Assembly (NCBI GenBank): GCA_028876065.1
Contig: JAGWTI010000019.1
Span: forward strand, 1-42,866
DNA: 42,866 nt
Direction of reading: 5' to 3'
Origin: Nitrospirota bacterium
GTDB lineage: Bacteria > Nitrospirota > Nitrospiria > Nitrospirales > Nitrospiraceae
This document shows positions 3,022 to 42,866 of the stretch, piece after piece (positions within the stretch are counted from its first letter, which is position 1; each line of letters begins with the position of its first letter). The notes beneath the pieces were generated by a model that had not been told where the DNA came from, searched no databases, and saw nothing but the letters and a program-made list of their open reading frames with translations. Position numbers and translations under genes: made by a program.

Positions 3022-3420
3022 TTATAGCCACACGATCTTCACTTCCTTCTCCACCGTCTTGAACTCCGGATCTCCCGTATAGATGTCGAGCTTCCTCTGT
3101 TTAGCCAACGCCGCTGCGAAGCAGTCGGCCAGGGACATCTTGTTTGACGCTTTGATTTCCCCTGCCAGCTCAGCCAAGCCTTGATCGGCCGGAACAATTT
3201 CGATAGGAAGGCCTAAGAGCTTGTGGCGGACTTCGTTCCACTTGCCCGCCCCAACCTTGCGCTCGACCATATAACGGACCTCCGCCCAATTCGGGGCAAC
3301 CATGAAGAGAGCCTTGTCGGCCTCCGCTGCCTTCTCAAGAAGCTCCGCTACCTTCTCGGACCCTTTCTCCTGGAAGAGGAAGGCCAGCACCGCATAGCTA
3401 TCGAGCACCGAGCTTTTCAA
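3022..3420 (-). CDS. vapC: VapC-type PIN-domain ribonuclease toxin
   Basis: 132 residues. The PIN-domain acidic residues are visible: D7 in SVLDSYAVLAF, E47 in NWAEVRY, D99 in SLADCFAAALA and D117 in TGDPEF. PIN toxins use these to hold Mg2+ and cleave RNA (often tRNA). The start overlaps the upstream antitoxin by 23 bp, as in many vapBC operons. The gene lies on the opposite strand to hicBA and the next TA pair, yet is bracketed by same-orientation repeats R2 and R3. Confidence 0.9.
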   Translation of the reverse strand: MKSSVLDSYAVLAFLFQEKGSEKVAELLEKAAEADKALFMVAPNWAEVRYMVERKVGAGKWNEVRHKLLGLPIEIVPADQGLAELAGEIKASNKMSLADCFAAALAKQRKLDIYTGDPEFKTVEKEVKIVWL

Positions 3421-4003: not shown

Positions 4004-4061
4004 TTGACGAGCGGTGCATCATGCGGTAGACTGTGCATCACAGTGATGCACCGATGATGCA
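4004..4061 (+). promoter_or_regulatory. Promoter with nested operator for the RHH-PIN toxin-antitoxin pair
   Basis: TTGACG (4004-4009), 17-bp spacer, TAGACT (4027-4032). The heptamer TGCATCA occurs at 4015-4021 and 4034-4040, and its complement TGATGCA at 4044-4050 and 4055-4061. The inner pair forms a perfect 19-bp palindrome, GTGCATCACAGTGATGCAC (4033-4051). The sites cover the spacer and the predicted transcription start, as expected for a ribbon-helix-helix autorepressor. Confidence 0.75.
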
Positions 4062-4087
4062 TGCGTGGTACATGGAGGTATGAAGCC

Positions 4088-4348
4088 ATGAAAGCGATCA
4101 CGTTGCGCAATCTTCCGCCCGAGGTGGCCAAAACGGTTCAGCAGCGGGCGAAGCAAAAGAAAACCAGCGTCAATAAGGCGGTCATCGAGCTGCTGGAAGA
4201 ATCAGCGGGAGGCACAGCGAAGAAGAAAGTGAAAGTCCGCTACCATGACCTCGACCATCTGGTTGGAACCTGGACCAAGGAAGAGGCTGAGGCATTCGAT
4301 AAGATCGTAAAGTCCTTTCGAACGGTCGATCCCGACTTGTGGAAATGA
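4088..4348 (+). CDS. Ribbon-helix-helix antitoxin (FitA/VapB-like)
   Basis: 86 residues from ATG 4088, chosen because GGAGG (4074-4078) sits 9 bp ahead; an upstream in-frame ATG at 4061 lies inside the operator. The N-terminus MKAITLRNLPPEVAKTVQQR is a classic RHH DNA-binding arm, used by FitA and related VapB antitoxins to bind palindromes as dimers. The C-terminal part (about 50-86, acidic, with KSFRTVDPDLW) should clasp the PIN toxin. Its stop overlaps the toxin start (ATGA, 4345-4348). Confidence 0.88.
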   Translation: MKAITLRNLPPEVAKTVQQRAKQKKTSVNKAVIELLEESAGGTAKKKVKVRYHDLDHLVGTWTKEEAEAFDKIVKSFRTVDPDLWK

Positions 4349-4746
4349 TTCGGTTTTTGTTGGACACGTCCGCTTATTCCGCCTTCATGCGGAGATATCC
4401 CGACGTCATCCAATTGTTTGAATCCGCAGAGAGCCTCTACCTCAACCCCGTCGTATTGGCGGAAGTGCGGGCCGGGTTCCTCCTGGGAACGAGACGGGAG
4501 AAGAACGAAAGAGCGCTCAGGGAATTCCTCCAATCCTCGCGCGTCACCGTACTCCCTATCGATGACGAAACGGCAGATCGGTGGGCCGTCATCGCCGTCT
4601 CGCTCAGAAAGGCCGGCACGCCGATTTCCAGCAACGACATCTGGATCGCCGCCAGCGCCATGCAGTACGGGCTTCCGATCCTGACCTCCGATAGCGATTT
4701 TCAAAAAGTTCCCCAGGTCATGGTTCGCCACTTCTCGCCTGTCTAG
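4345..4746 (+). CDS. PIN-domain toxin (FitB/VapC-like)
   Basis: 133 residues from ATG 4345; a GTG two codons upstream is possible, but the ATGA overlap with the antitoxin is the usual arrangement. PIN acidic residues are D7 (FLLDTSAYSAF), E40 (VVLAEVRAGF), D98 (SSNDIWIAASA) and D116 (TSDSDF), all present, so an active Mg2+-dependent RNase is predicted. It follows the RHH antitoxin and is followed by repeat R4. Confidence 0.9.
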   Translation: MIRFLLDTSAYSAFMRRYPDVIQLFESAESLYLNPVVLAEVRAGFLLGTRREKNERALREFLQSSRVTVLPIDDETADRWAVIAVSLRKAGTPISSNDIWIAASAMQYGLPILTSDSDFQKVPQVMVRHFSPV

Positions 4747-38224: not shown

Positions 38225-38882
38225 CGCGCCGGCCTTTCTCGATCGCGGCGATGAGCGTACGAAAGGTCCGCGTCACGGCCCGCTCGAAGGCGTCCATCGA
38301 GGGATAGGTCCGCAGAATCGTCCGCTGATTGCGGGGCGAGGGGTGCGGGAAGGAGACGATCCGGCAGACAAGCCCGGTCCCGACGGCCATAGACGAGACC
38401 GCCTGCGCGACCGATCCGGCGGCCAGCTTGCCGAACGTCACGACGACCGAGGGAGTCAGGAGGCGCAGTTCCGCTTCGAGAAACGAGGCGCAGGTCTTGA
38501 TCTCCGCCCGGCGCGGAGACCGGTTGGCCAGGGGATTGCGCGAGGACCGGGGGTGACACTTCACGACATCGGTCATGAAGAACAAGTCTTCCAGGTCCCG
38601 GTACCGAGGATGGGCGAGCCGGGCCAGCGCGCGCCGGATCAACTGTCCGGCCGGCCCGGTGAACCGCCGCTTGTTCGCCCAACTTCGATAGCCGGGGGCC
38701 TCCCCGACCAGCAGGTAGCCGGTAGCCGCCGTGCCGGAGGCGTCAGAGTCGAACCGACGCCAGGGCTCCATGGAGTCGCACGCGGTGCAGCGGGCAATCT
38801 GTTGCTGGAGCAACGGCAGTCCTGAGCGGGAAGAGCGGCCCGGCGCGCGGGCCGGCCGGCTAGAACTGGCGGGACGAGACAT
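38217..38882 (-). CDS. Uracil-DNA glycosylase, iron-sulfur family (type 4/5)
   Basis: 221 residues from ATG 38882, overlapping the upstream phosphatase by 23 bp. Motif 1 is VGEAPGYRS and the His motif is SFPHPSPRNQ. Four cysteines (C32, C35, C109, C131) are placed as ligands of a 4Fe-4S cluster, as in families 4 and 5. It removes uracil from DNA. The His motif with HPSPRN fits family 5 at least as well as family 4. Confidence 0.88.
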   Translation of the reverse strand: MSRPASSSRPARAPGRSSRSGLPLLQQQIARCTACDSMEPWRRFDSDASGTAATGYLLVGEAPGYRSWANKRRFTGPAGQLIRRALARLAHPRYRDLEDLFFMTDVVKCHPRSSRNPLANRSPRRAEIKTCASFLEAELRLLTPSVVVTFGKLAAGSVAQAVSSMAVGTGLVCRIVSFPHPSPRNQRTILRTYPSMDAFERAVTRTFRTLIAAIEKGRRDA

Positions 38883-39995: not shown

Positions 39996-40087
39996 GCCTC
40001 GGAAGCCTTCAGCTATCAGCTCAATCCATATAGCCGGACCGGCCGCTCCTGCCTGCCCAGATGCTTCGCCTCGAAAAAACCGGAGCA

Positions 40088-40337
40088 CGGCTGACGAACG
40101 GCGGCCAGCTTCGGCGCCGGCACGATGCGTTGCCCCTTCTCTGGCTCATCTGGTCTTACTGTTGGCCGGTCGCCTCATCGGAATAGAAGAGTCCGGCGCC
40201 CGGCACCCTCTCCGCTTCCGAACACCCCGTTCCCGCCGTGCCGGACGCCTCACTGACCATCCGTTCCAGCCGCGCTTTAAAAAAGAGAGTTTGGCAGGGA
40301 CACGTCGCTCATGGACCTGTCCCTGCTAGCGGTGGCT
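40088..40337. repeat. Long direct repeat, copy 1 (~250 bp)
   Basis: Aligns without gaps to 41266-41515 (constant offset 1178), with few mismatches: CGGCTGACGAACGGCGGCC.. through ..TGTCCCTGCTAGCGG. Near the end GGCAGGGACA pairs with TGTCCCTGC. It lies between the small gene ending at 39995 and the broken TA module. Confidence 0.9.
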
Positions 40338-40378
40338 TACGCTATTGATTGATTATAGAGGGATCGAGTGGTCAGCTC

Positions 40379-40528
40379 TCAGACATCAGAATGAAAACGA
40401 ACAGCTCGCTTTGCATTCTCACGTCGAGCCCGGTTGCTCTCACGTTTGGCGTCAACCTTACGACCCCAGTAAGCGCCAGAGCCCTTCTTGGGTCCAGCGT
40501 GTTCTGCCTTCTTGGCTTTTCCGGCCAT
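40379..40528 (-). CDS. Small basic protein, paralog of 42272-42442
   Basis: 49 residues from ATG 40528, with AAGGGGAG 7 bp upstream. The GPKKGSGAYWGRKVDAKRES core, followed by NRARRENAKR, is shared with the protein at 42272-42442. Very basic, with no hydrophobic segment; likely nucleic-acid- or ribosome-binding. It follows the broken ParE-type toxin gene by 68 bp on the same strand. Confidence 0.7.
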   Translation of the reverse strand: MAGKAKKAEHAGPKKGSGAYWGRKVDAKRESNRARRENAKRAVRFHSDV

Positions 40529-40596
40529 GCTTCTCCCCTTTTTCTTCCACCAGCAAAGAACAGAATCTCCTTTGGCTTCCTCGTAGAGGTGAACTC

Positions 40597-40896
40597 TTAG
40601 CTGCTCTCTTTCAAGCGCTTCCTGATCCACGATGGTTTCCTGCGGCAATCCATCACGGCGTGCACGCGAACAAACTCCCCCTTCACACTGTAATAGATCG
40701 CAAACGGAAAGCGCTTGGAAAGGGCCCGGTGATGCGAGAACGTAAGCGGGTGAATCCCTGCGGAGTGACGGAGAGAATCGATATCTGCAAACAACTCGTC
40801 TTAAAAATACGACCCGAGTCCCGCCTCCTGACTTTCGTAAAAACGAAAGCCCTGGCCTAAATCCACCAGAGCTTCCTCCAGTACCTGGATTCTCAC
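40597..40896 (-). pseudogene. RelE/ParE-type toxin broken by an in-frame ochre codon
   Basis: From GTG 40896, which overlaps the antitoxin stop (GTGA), the frame reads VRIQVLEEALVDLGQGFRFY...GLGSYF, then TAA (40801-40803), then continues in the same frame as DELFADIDSLRHSAGIH..HHRALSKRFPFAIYYSV..RKKPSW-like to the end. The whole is a RelE/ParE-fold toxin of about 99 residues. One base change in a Leu or Tyr codon would explain the stop. The rest has no other damage, so the loss is recent or the codon is read through. Confidence 0.8.
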
Positions 40897-41111
40897 GAGA
40901 GCTTCTTGCGCAGAGCCTCTTTGGCCGTCTCCCAATCAATCAATTGCGTTTTACCCTCGGCAAGCAACCGGAGACGTTCCTCCAGAACCTCCTTGTGCCA
41001 GGCAGGGGACTCGATGGCTTCCGGCGTCCGGGCGAGATCCTCCCACAGCGACTCCATCGCAGCCAGCTTCTCCTGGAGGGTCATGTCCTTGAGCGGAAGG
41101 TTGAACGGCAT
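40893..41111 (-). CDS. RelB-like addiction-module antitoxin
   Basis: 72 residues beginning MPFNLPLKDMTLQEKLAAME. The helix pattern LQEKLAAMESLWEDLARTPE and the later PAWHKEVLEERLRLLAEGK with final DWETAKEALRKKLS match the short addiction-module component family (TIGR02574 type), which pairs with RelE/ParE toxins. TTGAAT (41140-41145), 16 bp, TATACT (41118-41123) is 6 bp from the ATG, so the message is probably leaderless. It remains intact although its toxin is broken. Confidence 0.85.
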   Translation of the reverse strand: MPFNLPLKDMTLQEKLAAMESLWEDLARTPEAIESPAWHKEVLEERLRLLAEGKTQLIDWETAKEALRKKLS

Positions 41112-41265
41112 GGCCCTAGTATACCCCAGCTTCCAACGGATTCAAGCCTCTTTGCCGGACCGTCGGCGAATGAGCCGCAGTGCCCCCGACGGACGGCTTT
41201 TTGACCAGCCTAAAAGCCAGAAAAGGTTCTTGGGAAATTTCCCCCCTTCGAAACAAACAGAGCCG

Positions 41266-41515
41266 CGGCTGACGAACGGCGGCCAGCTTCGGCGCCGGCA
41301 CGATGCGTTGCCCTTCTCTGGCTCTTCTTGTCTGACTGTTGGCCGGTCGCCTCATCGGAATAGAAGAGTCCGGCGCCCGGCGCCCTCTCCGCTTCCGAAC
41401 ACCTCGTTCCCGCCGTGCCGGGCACCTTACTGACCATCCGTTCCAGCCGCGGATAAAAAAAGAGGGGGTGGCAGGTACAGGCCGCTCATGGACCTGTCCC
41501 TGCTAGCGGTCGCTT
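41266..41515. repeat. Long direct repeat, copy 2 (~250 bp)
   Basis: Second copy of 40088-40337. The terminal inverted repeat is GGCAGGTACAGG with CCTGTCCCTGC. It lies upstream of the antitoxin-toxin-basic protein set; copy 1 lies downstream, so the module is bracketed by direct repeats. Confidence 0.9.
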
Positions 41516-41650
41516 CGCATTTGATTGTTGATCAATAAACGGCGACGACAGCCCCGTCGCCATTCAAGATTGTGGCCTTGTTGGCTAACCCTTTTGAGCA
41601 ACCTGCTGGGTTGAACCACGCCACCACCTGTCCAAGAAAAGACTCCATTC

Positions 41651-42149
41651 TTATTTCCCGCTTCTTACACCAAGAATCTGCTGACAAAGAAGGAGTAACT
41701 GTTCGGGACGGCACTTTGTTAAATGTTTTGACACGACTCTATGGAGAAGGATTGCCCTGACCTTTTCAGTGAACGCATGATCGGCACCACGGTCTAGTTT
41801 TGTATGACAGTTAGGACAAAGGAGAACGATGTTATCTGCAGAGGCCTGCCCGCCCCCTCTCGCCTCCTTCCAATGTGCACGCTCAAGGGGGACACTACCT
41901 TCTGAACAGGCCTCGCATGCAGGCCGGGATCTCGGCGGTGGCACCTGCGGTTCCGTTTCGCGCCGTACAGGGAGTCCAAGCATTTCAATCCAACTTCTGC
42001 TTCGGCTTCGCTTGTTGGACTCAAAGATCATATTGCGCTTCACGCCCCATCGATCAGCAAGGCGTTTCTGCCCCCCACCTCTTCTCGACATAGAACTCCT
42101 GGTAATCCTCTTCGAGAGTACGGCCGAGATGGCCCTCCACTTCCAACAT
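41651..42149 (-). pseudogene. Frameshifted HTH-HNH endonuclease gene
   Basis: From ATG 42149 the frame encodes MLEVEGHLGRTLEEDYQEFY, VEKRWG and then goes out of frame at a G6 run (42071-42076 on the plus strand as C6). Dropping one G joins QKRLADRWGVKRNMIFESNK, a helix-turn-helix-like segment, to the HNH domain CEACSEG..ERAHWKEARGGGQ..NIVLLCPNCHTKLDRG (Cys pairs, H, N, H). In frame, the product would be about 165 residues. Upstream, codons for RTEPGQKTRR continue the family-like sequence without a start codon, so the 5' end may also be damaged. Confidence 0.7.
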
Positions 42150-42271
42150 GCGGCGAGTCTTTTGGCCAGGCTCTGTGCGCTTGTAGACCATCTTGAGATC
42201 CAACCTTAATTCAGCGAAAGCATATCGTATGCGGTCGTTTTGTATAGGAGCAACAAGACAGATTTAAGGGG

Positions 42272-42442
42272 TCAGCCCCCTTTCTCGTTCACCGAATCTG
42301 TAAGGCCCTGCCGGACGTCTCGCTTTGCACGCTCACGTCGAAGCCGATTGCTCTCGCGTTTGGCGTCGCCCCTACGGCCCCAATAGGCACCGACCCCTTT
42401 CTTAGGTCCAGAGTGTTCCGTCTTTCTGGCTCTTCCAGCCAT
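42272..42442 (-). CDS. Small basic protein, paralog of 40379-40528
   Basis: 56 residues from ATG 42442 (weak ribosome-binding site). GPKKGVGAYWGRRGDAKRES, then NRLRRERAKR, matches its paralog at about 75% over the core, with a longer tail. It begins 16 bp after the brnA stop, so the family again sits at the 3' end of a TA operon. Confidence 0.7.
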   Translation of the reverse strand: MAGRARKTEHSGPKKGVGAYWGRRGDAKRESNRLRRERAKRDVRQGLTDSVNEKGG

Positions 42443-42458
42443 GACTCGATTTGCCAAG

Positions 42459-42749
42459 CTAGCCGGCATGCGCTCTTTTCGCGCGTGTCCGTGCATACGC
42501 TGAACGTGAGGCGGTCGGTCGCGAATGATGCTCGGCATAGGCGTCGAGCAGCCGCCGGACCATGCGCTGGTACTGGGTGTGATGTTTCTTCGCCTCTTCC
42601 TTAAAAAACTCGACACTTCTCTTGCTCAGGGCGATGGTTACCTTGACCCCTTCATCCCGAAAGACAAGGTCCTCGGGGCGTGGGAGAAAGTCAGGAACGA
42701 CCCTGAGGCTTCCGAGTGGTTCGTCCGTGTACTTGATTTTCGCGCTCAT
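42459..42749 (-). CDS. brnA: BrnA-type antitoxin (CopG/RHH)
   Basis: 96 residues. After an N-terminal arm (YTDEPLGSLRVVPDFLPRPE), VKVTIALSKRSVEFFKEEAK and HTQYQRMVRRLLDAYAEHH match the BrnA/CopG ribbon-helix-helix family. The start lies inside the brnT gene (59-bp overlap). It neutralises BrnT and represses the operon. Confidence 0.85.
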   Translation of the reverse strand: MSAKIKYTDEPLGSLRVVPDFLPRPEDLVFRDEGVKVTIALSKRSVEFFKEEAKKHHTQYQRMVRRLLDAYAEHHSRPTASRSAYARTRAKRAHAG

Positions 42750-42866
42750 AGATTCGCCTCCCCTTTCGCCAGTAACCGGCTTCGAAAATCCGAATCACGT
42801 CATGGCGAAACGTGAATCGAACGGTCAGAATCCCACCGCCCACCCAACCGATACAGTACTGCCGCT
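42691..42866 (-). CDS. brnT: BrnT-type toxin, C-terminal part cut by the window edge
   Basis: Open from the window edge, stop TGA at 42691-42693. The visible part contains YCIGWVGGGILTVRFTFRHD and VIRIFEAGYWRKGRRIYER, matching the C-terminal strands of BrnT ribonuclease toxins (RelE-like fold). It overlaps brnA, which starts at 42749. The beginning is outside the window. Confidence 0.75.
   Translation of the reverse strand, partial: RQYCIGWVGGGILTVRFTFRHDVIRIFEAGYWRKGRRIYERENQVHGRTTRKPQGRS

Follow-up and report, generated by a model that had tools for sequence, protein, structure and literature searches.

Paralogous small basic proteins encoded beside toxin–antitoxin genes in a Nitrospirota contig, and their relatives in other bacterial and viral loci

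Two small basic genes in tandem units

We analyzed a stretch of 42,866 nucleotides (the window) from contig JAGWTI010000019.1 of a Nitrospirota bacterium (assembly GCA_028876065.1), in which a preliminary description had picked out two short genes for related basic proteins. Both open reading frames are present, encoding proteins of 49 and 56 amino acids (P0001 and P0002; Table 1), and they are paralogs as claimed, with 77% identity across 44 residues. Single-sequence and profile searches of the genome (3.41 Mb, 158 contigs) identified these as its sole copies. Neither protein matched Pfam or NCBIfam at E values up to 1, PHROGs at 0.1 or PADLOC at 0.01, and P0001 had no sequence match in the PDB at E values up to 1. 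A known antitoxin domain, one mark of a type II antitoxin, was likewise absent from both proteins in Pfam and NCBIfam at E ≤ 1. Because four protein-family libraries give no match, annotation routinely overlooks the small basic protein.

Comparison of 39 family members revealed purifying selection, with a median pN/pS of 0.22 in frame versus 1.67 and 1.38 in the shifted frames (740 pairs; one of 741 was excluded for low pS). Two members in this alignment (L073 and L076) are one residue off register past a gap, a bias that runs against low pN/pS. These values rule out an overlap artefact or an antisense reading of another gene. We also rejected a DNA-level element, such as an attachment or target site, because synonymous sites vary freely.

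On the minus strand, a BrnT gene truncated at the contig end comes first, then BrnA, P0002, an HNH gene and a repeat; these are followed by a PF09720 antitoxin, an interrupted ParE/RelE-type toxin and P0001, beyond which the repeat recurs. The two units are arranged in tandem, and the type of toxin–antitoxin (TA) system differs between them. The preliminary description had placed P0001 behind a ParE/RelB-like pair and P0002 behind a BrnTA pair. Each small gene does immediately follow TA-type genes in the same orientation, but the antitoxin of the P0001 unit belongs to PF09720 rather than RelB. The BrnTA assignment is upheld by strong similarity to the BrnTA pair of another locus (L017), although BrnA falls below its Pfam cut-off (20.4 versus 26.1 bits) and BrnT is incomplete, its 5′ part missing because the contig ends at 42866. 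The ParE/RelE-type gene was identified by tblastn with the ParE-like protein of locus L015 as query. It is split by an in-frame stop into two open reading frames in one frame (40801-40935 and 40597-40794), and since the toxin carries this stop, the PF09720–ParE/RelE-type pair is probably dead. P0001 and the antitoxin gene are both open, and P0001 follows the interrupted toxin after a gap of 68 nt.

Table 1 Features of the window. Repeats are given without strand.
Feature	Position	Strand	Evidence and remarks
Small basic protein copy 1, P0001	40379..40528	-	49 aa, pI 11.1
Small basic protein copy 2, P0002	42272..42442	-	56 aa, pI 11.4
PF09720 (Unstab_antitox) antitoxin gene, upstream of P0001	40893..41111	-	E 7.7e-16, 58.3 bits, cut-off 23.3
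ParE/RelE-type toxin gene between PF09720 antitoxin and P0001	40597..40935	-	In-frame stop; tblastn 3e-6
BrnA-type antitoxin gene, upstream of P0002	42459..42749	-	1e-50 to BrnA of L017; gap 16 nt
BrnT-type toxin gene, 5′ part missing	42691..42866	-	Similarity to BrnT of L017 only, 1e-20
Dispersed ~280-nt repeat, one side of P0001 unit	40071..40351	.	90% identical to 41240..41530 copy
Dispersed ~290-nt repeat, other side of P0001 unit	41240..41530	.	
Free-standing HNH gene between the two units	41651..42091	-	PF01844, 1.9e-6
PIN toxin gene, same contig	3022-3420	-	Without small basic protein
PIN toxin gene, same contig	4061-4746	+	Without small basic protein

The repeat flanking the P0001 unit is dispersed and about 250-290 nt long, with 26 matches in the genome (two in the window and 24 elsewhere). 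Ten of the 26 have one of the 34 BrnT, ParE or PIN genes counted in the genome within 1 kb, compared with about 2.5% expected per copy. At one further site (L121), a BrnT gene and its neighbour are bracketed by two repeat copies. We considered an integron-type, repeat-flanked cassette and dropped it: the repeat is dispersed, and its orientation to genes varies in the regions read. No RNA element was detected at Rfam gathering thresholds between positions 38500 and 42866. Below threshold, the HNH gene weakly resembles IscB and the HNH effectors of PADLOC. A small open reading frame ahead of the PIN gene at 4061-4746, read by eye, may be its antitoxin.

Distribution and partner genes of the family

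The family has the conserved core KTEH-G-KKG-GAYWGRK--AK--SN--RR, with E9, H10, G12, K14, G16, G18, G22, A27, S31, R35 and R36 invariant in 29 members, eight of them viral. A close-relative scan of genome contigs identified 21 loci, mostly in Nitrospira and other Nitrospirae; the other hosts were Syntrophales, other Deltaproteobacteria, Verrucomicrobia, Giovannonibacteria and two records named only as bacteria. Distribution between genomes is sporadic. Profile searching of 395 genomes in the phylum picked up the small gene in 35, with nothing more than partial matches in 11 of these. A single-sequence search of 61 near relatives was positive for four. In the phylum of genome G414, it occurs in 6 of 345 genomes (two of them the seeds, G414 and G416, and one a marginal match that contains two stops), and the five finds among 297 genomes in the phylum of G416 are all already among these six. 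The phylum of G417 yielded 2 of 288 genomes, one being a seed and the other marginal. The five genomes behind six chosen loci all carry the small gene by construction. Several copies are broken. Genome G416 contains three copies, one behind a DUF4258–YokU-like pair (L021), one behind a YokU-like gene at a contig end (L024) and one behind DUF2442 (L023). Another bacterium carries a DUF4258–YokU-like unit in which the second half of the small gene is replaced, with a HigA-like gene after it (L026).

We assembled 48 distinct loci and searched them by tblastn, using partner proteins as queries. The two window copies stand in for L001, and same-place duplicates were removed (L002, L003, L027-L031, L033, L035, L037-L039, L047, L053, L064, L065, L066, which equals L019, and L067-L070). 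Also left out were L074 and L077, which gave no match on rescan, and profile matches without a separate locus. Broken copies were retained, as was L024, the second copy in the genome of L021, which a contig end cuts. A TA-type gene lies within 800 bp in 30 of the 48 loci, four of these calls being weak (DUF2442 in L023, DUF6036 in L076, and in L044 and L050 a Panacea gene at a distance of over 400 nt); in some loci, such as L004, L012 and L043, an antitoxin-like gene alone was recognized. Eleven further loci have a Bro-N or ORF6N gene instead of a TA-type gene, two have only a cas gene (L045, L071), and five have no recognized partner within 800 bp (L005, L020, L022, L072, L075). When queries from the same locus were omitted, 22 of the 48 loci kept their TA match.

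As a control, we searched 220 windows of 1,750 bases each, drawn from 20 stretches of 11 genomes carrying the small gene. The same queries matched none of them, and with six toxin queries added, two matched. The control queries were taken from the loci themselves and do not cover other TA subfamilies: in a positive check on TA regions of the source genome they found two BrnT genes and missed the ParE and PIN genes. The BrnT, ParE and PIN genes of that genome would together touch about 2% of windows of such size. The difference between loci and control is significant (Fisher p < 1e-18), with the qualification that the p value overstates the case because the loci are partly related; in particular, 11 Nitrospira-family loci share one downstream chromosomal flank and are therefore not independent. 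The link to TA genes proposed from the window stands, as it is consistent across loci and far above the control.

Position and strand follow the same pattern. All 43 loci with a partner have their nearest one on the strand of the small gene, and all 115 partner matches share that strand; the aligned portion of the nearest partner is no more than 150 nt away in 37 of these loci. Where a TA-type gene is present, as in the 30 loci above, the small gene regularly neighbours it in the same orientation, as expected of a third component of TA modules. Upstream gaps are 2 nt to HEPN (L073), 3 nt (L017, with an ATT start), 7 nt (L008) and 16 nt (window) to BrnA, 5 nt to the YokU-like gene (L021), 17-21 nt to Bro-N (L013, L014, L019, L040, L049), 20 nt (L046) and 39 nt (L009) to HigA, 21 nt to DUF2442 (L023), 65 nt to ORF6N (L016), 68 nt (window) and 115 nt (L015) to ParE, and 127 nt to a YgiT-like gene (L010). 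Downstream, HicB follows after 2 nt (L041, L042), and in L012 HigA overlaps the end of the small gene. Downstream Cas3 is the nearest partner in seven loci, and Cas1 in L071.

We called neighbouring open reading frames by means of a simple coding score and inspected them visually, and one or two representatives of each partner type were then scanned against Pfam. These scans identified a HigB-like toxin with HTH_3 (L009), Gp49 with HTH_3 (L046), BrnT with a sub-threshold BrnA (L017), DUF4258 with a sub-threshold MqsA (L010) or YokU (L021), and PF09720 with a sub-threshold ParE (L015). They also recognized HicA (L041), a HicB-like protein (L018), DUF2442 (L023), NTP_transf_2 with HEPN (L073), a DUF6036 nucleotidyltransferase (L076) and SocA/Panacea (L044). 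Outside the TA types, the scans found Bro-N together with Cas3 (L013), ORF6N (L016, L025), Cas3 (L045) and Cas1 (L071). The HicB of L041 has no Pfam match and takes its name from its position before HicA, and the protein downstream of the small gene in L075 had no Pfam match either.

The preliminary description had called the TA families unrelated. According to the accessible text of one publication, the BECR-fold toxin families include BrnT, Gp49, DUF4258 and ParE, with HigB-like toxins among the fused ones and MqsA described as an antitoxin fused to DUF4258 (PMC11980606). Because these are BECR families, the variety of TA types beside the small gene is partly one toxin fold with different antitoxins. 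Five recognized partner toxin types (BrnT, HigB-like, Gp49, DUF4258 and ParE) are accordingly of one class, so the description is too simple for these; the HicA, HEPN and nucleotidyltransferase partners are further types, outside the BECR list as far as the accessible text extends. In the same source, BrnT and Gp49 degrade mRNA, no known activity is given for DUF4258, and ParE, conventionally a DNA-directed toxin, includes a subcluster that cleaves mRNA (PMC11980606). PIN toxins are common in the source genome, accounting for 21 of the 34 toxin genes counted (BrnT 5, ParE 8, PIN 21), and three PIN queries found no PIN partner within 800 bp of any copy of the small gene.

A tie to TA genes had been proposed; it accounts for the 30 loci above, but the association is wider, taking in the 11 Bro-N or ORF6N loci and the seven with cas3 downstream. 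The Bro-N protein of L013 matches the PADLOC phage-defence candidate PDC-S13 (9e-107), the ORF6N protein of L016 matches candidate PDC-S05 (1e-64), and the Cas3 of L013 fits PADLOC Cas3c best. The small gene directly precedes cas3 or cas1 in eight loci (L013, L014, L016, L034, L036, L040, L045, L071), in seven of which it lies behind a Bro-N or ORF6N gene or fragment.

Viral copies and predicted structure

Two scans identified the module on 12 viral contigs, three of which (L085, L086, L089) carry an identical protein. In 11 of the 12, it lies in frame within a larger protein of 170 to more than 1000 amino acids; in L088, it stands alone as a 45-residue open frame. The carrier gene is located between the portal and head maturation protease genes in L078, and between the tail sheath and tail tube genes in L079. 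By eye, the viral carriers have short leader-like N-termini. The viral proteins of L060 (3314-5338), L059 and L061 string together tiny domains with long unassigned parts; DUF7230 also occurs in the L060 carrier, and DUF5661 in those of L059 and L061. Phage and plasmid record collections gave no match in BLAST searches, whose low-complexity filter may hide short Lys-rich queries. T4 internal proteins are injected into the host, where IPI* blocks a host nuclease (PMC3012670), and by analogy the viral carriers may be cleaved and located in the virion.

AlphaFold2 predicted for P0001 a hairpin (residues 9-14 and 17-23) and a helix (24-48), with a pLDDT of 79 and a pTM of 0.53, and for a viral copy shorter strands and a helix (pLDDT 74.5, pTM 0.47). 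The small protein is thus predicted to form a beta-hairpin followed by one long Lys/Arg-rich helix (beta-beta-alpha). A fold search with the P0001 model against the PDB gave no match, viral fold matches were noise, and neither sequence nor fold searches of the PDB identified an RNA-binding domain matching P0001. We also considered a hairpin and helix like those of a dsRNA-binding domain, and dropped the idea after the fold search and a profile comparison with one HicA gave nothing. The preliminary description had suggested binding to RNA or the ribosome, and a pI of 11 with the predicted beta-beta-alpha fold would be compatible with this.

Possible roles of the small basic protein

Third components of TA systems have been proposed before. 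The available portions of the work of Makarova et al. invoke a third component, still unknown, in Bro-type pairs; for MNT-HEPN they raise the possibility of one that binds DNA (PMC2701414). Three-gene TA operons, such as the TAC chaperone modules (PMC5105189) and putative three-component systems (PMC2701414), likewise have a small third cistron on the same strand. In contrast to these, the gene studied here encodes a basic module of 50 residues with a predicted beta-beta-alpha fold and without a chaperone, protease or HTH match, and it is common to many TA types as well as Bro-N, ORF6N and cas loci. The Panacea antitoxin domain (PMC8832971) is also a single family found beside many toxin types, but Panacea is the antitoxin, whereas the small protein, which is far shorter and strongly basic, in many loci accompanies a recognizable antitoxin-type gene. 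A search of the open-licence literature on third TA components, at the level of titles and abstract openings, gave no entry among the matches listed in which the small basic protein is recognizable, and a search with its core peptide returned four papers, whose titles all concern unrelated peptides.

Our data tentatively favour the view that TA and phage-defence operons share a mobile accessory gene, whose product we infer to bind nucleic acid and to affect the neighbouring toxin. The small protein would be made together with the TA or defence proteins, as an optional accessory. Its hairpin and helix would bind nucleic acid, most likely RNA or the ribosome and, as a second choice, operator DNA. 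Toxins of the HigB, HicA and HEPN types are RNA-cleaving. Since RNA is what several of the partner toxins cleave, we favour it or the ribosome as the ligand. Once bound, the protein would tune or shield the target of the neighbouring toxin, or help in control of the operon. Against a role at RNase targets, 13 of the 48 loci hold only Bro-N/ORF6N or cas genes and not RNase toxins.

An unlikely alternative, though the strongest of those we weighed, is that the small gene is an ordinary DNA-binding gene of insertion hotspots or mobile islands that meets TA genes by chance and has no functional link to them. The 11 Nitrospira-family loci fit this idea, as the TA type beside the gene varies even though they share one downstream flank, and so does the dispersed repeat around the P0001 unit, with its 10 of 26 copies near BrnT, ParE or PIN genes. 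Chance adjacency is harder to reconcile with the common strand in 43 of 43 loci (partly related), with the spacing of 2-21 nt from a number of partner types unrelated to each other, and with the lack of a PIN partner to three queries when PIN makes up 21 of the 34 toxin genes counted in the source genome. We regard as improbable that the family began as a virion or internal-head module of phages and was captured by bacteria, or that capture ran the other way. Such a module would coat or protect phage DNA and persist in chromosomes as a leftover or a counter-defence piece. The module's place in frame within larger proteins on 11 of 12 viral contigs (alone in one), the structural genes flanking the L078 and L079 carriers, and the nuclease-blocking T4 protein argue for such an origin. 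T4-type internal head proteins (PMC3012670) and polyvalent phage proteins (PMC5512222) resemble the family in that a Lys-rich module sits inside large multi-part proteins; in L078 and L079, two of the 12 viral contigs, the carrier lies in a head or tail gene block. The bacterial copies, however, are free-standing, their neighbourhoods showed no prophage block on visual inspection, and the phage and plasmid record collections gave no match (subject to the low-complexity filter).

Slightly less probable still is an extra antitoxin or toxin subunit that directly binds the toxin or antitoxin protein. The third-cistron position in TA operons speaks for it, and we counted the proposal of Makarova et al. 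in its support. It is opposed by the broken copies in L007, L026, L051, L052 and L054, beside which, by sequence similarity, TA genes persist. A type II antitoxin is expected to be kept whenever its toxin is kept, whereas the small gene, again by similarity, has broken copies beside TA genes. Because of these loci, and because P0001 is intact beside a broken toxin, the small protein is probably not the antitoxin. Many loci already have a recognizable antitoxin, and a subunit of this kind would presumably need unrelated surfaces for HEPN, HicA, BrnT, Bro-N and Cas3.

Returning to the accessory-gene reading, TA modules are mostly read as two-gene units. A conserved third protein that recurs in many TA types, Bro-N/ORF6N defence candidates, cas loci and phage proteins would hint at one step shared by all of them, such as docking to a target on RNA or the ribosome. 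More speculatively, and with a low probability in our estimation, one nucleic-acid-binding module may serve both sides, docking RNA or the ribosome as the third gene of bacterial TA and defence operons and blunting toxins as part of a phage virion protein. If so, phages would deliver the module at infection, by means of virion proteins, against the same RNase-type toxins. DUF7230 (PF23876), for which no paper was found in the open-licence literature, is another tiny basic module; a search of 295 genomes in the phylum matched neither it nor the controls. It lies in the same phage protein of L060.
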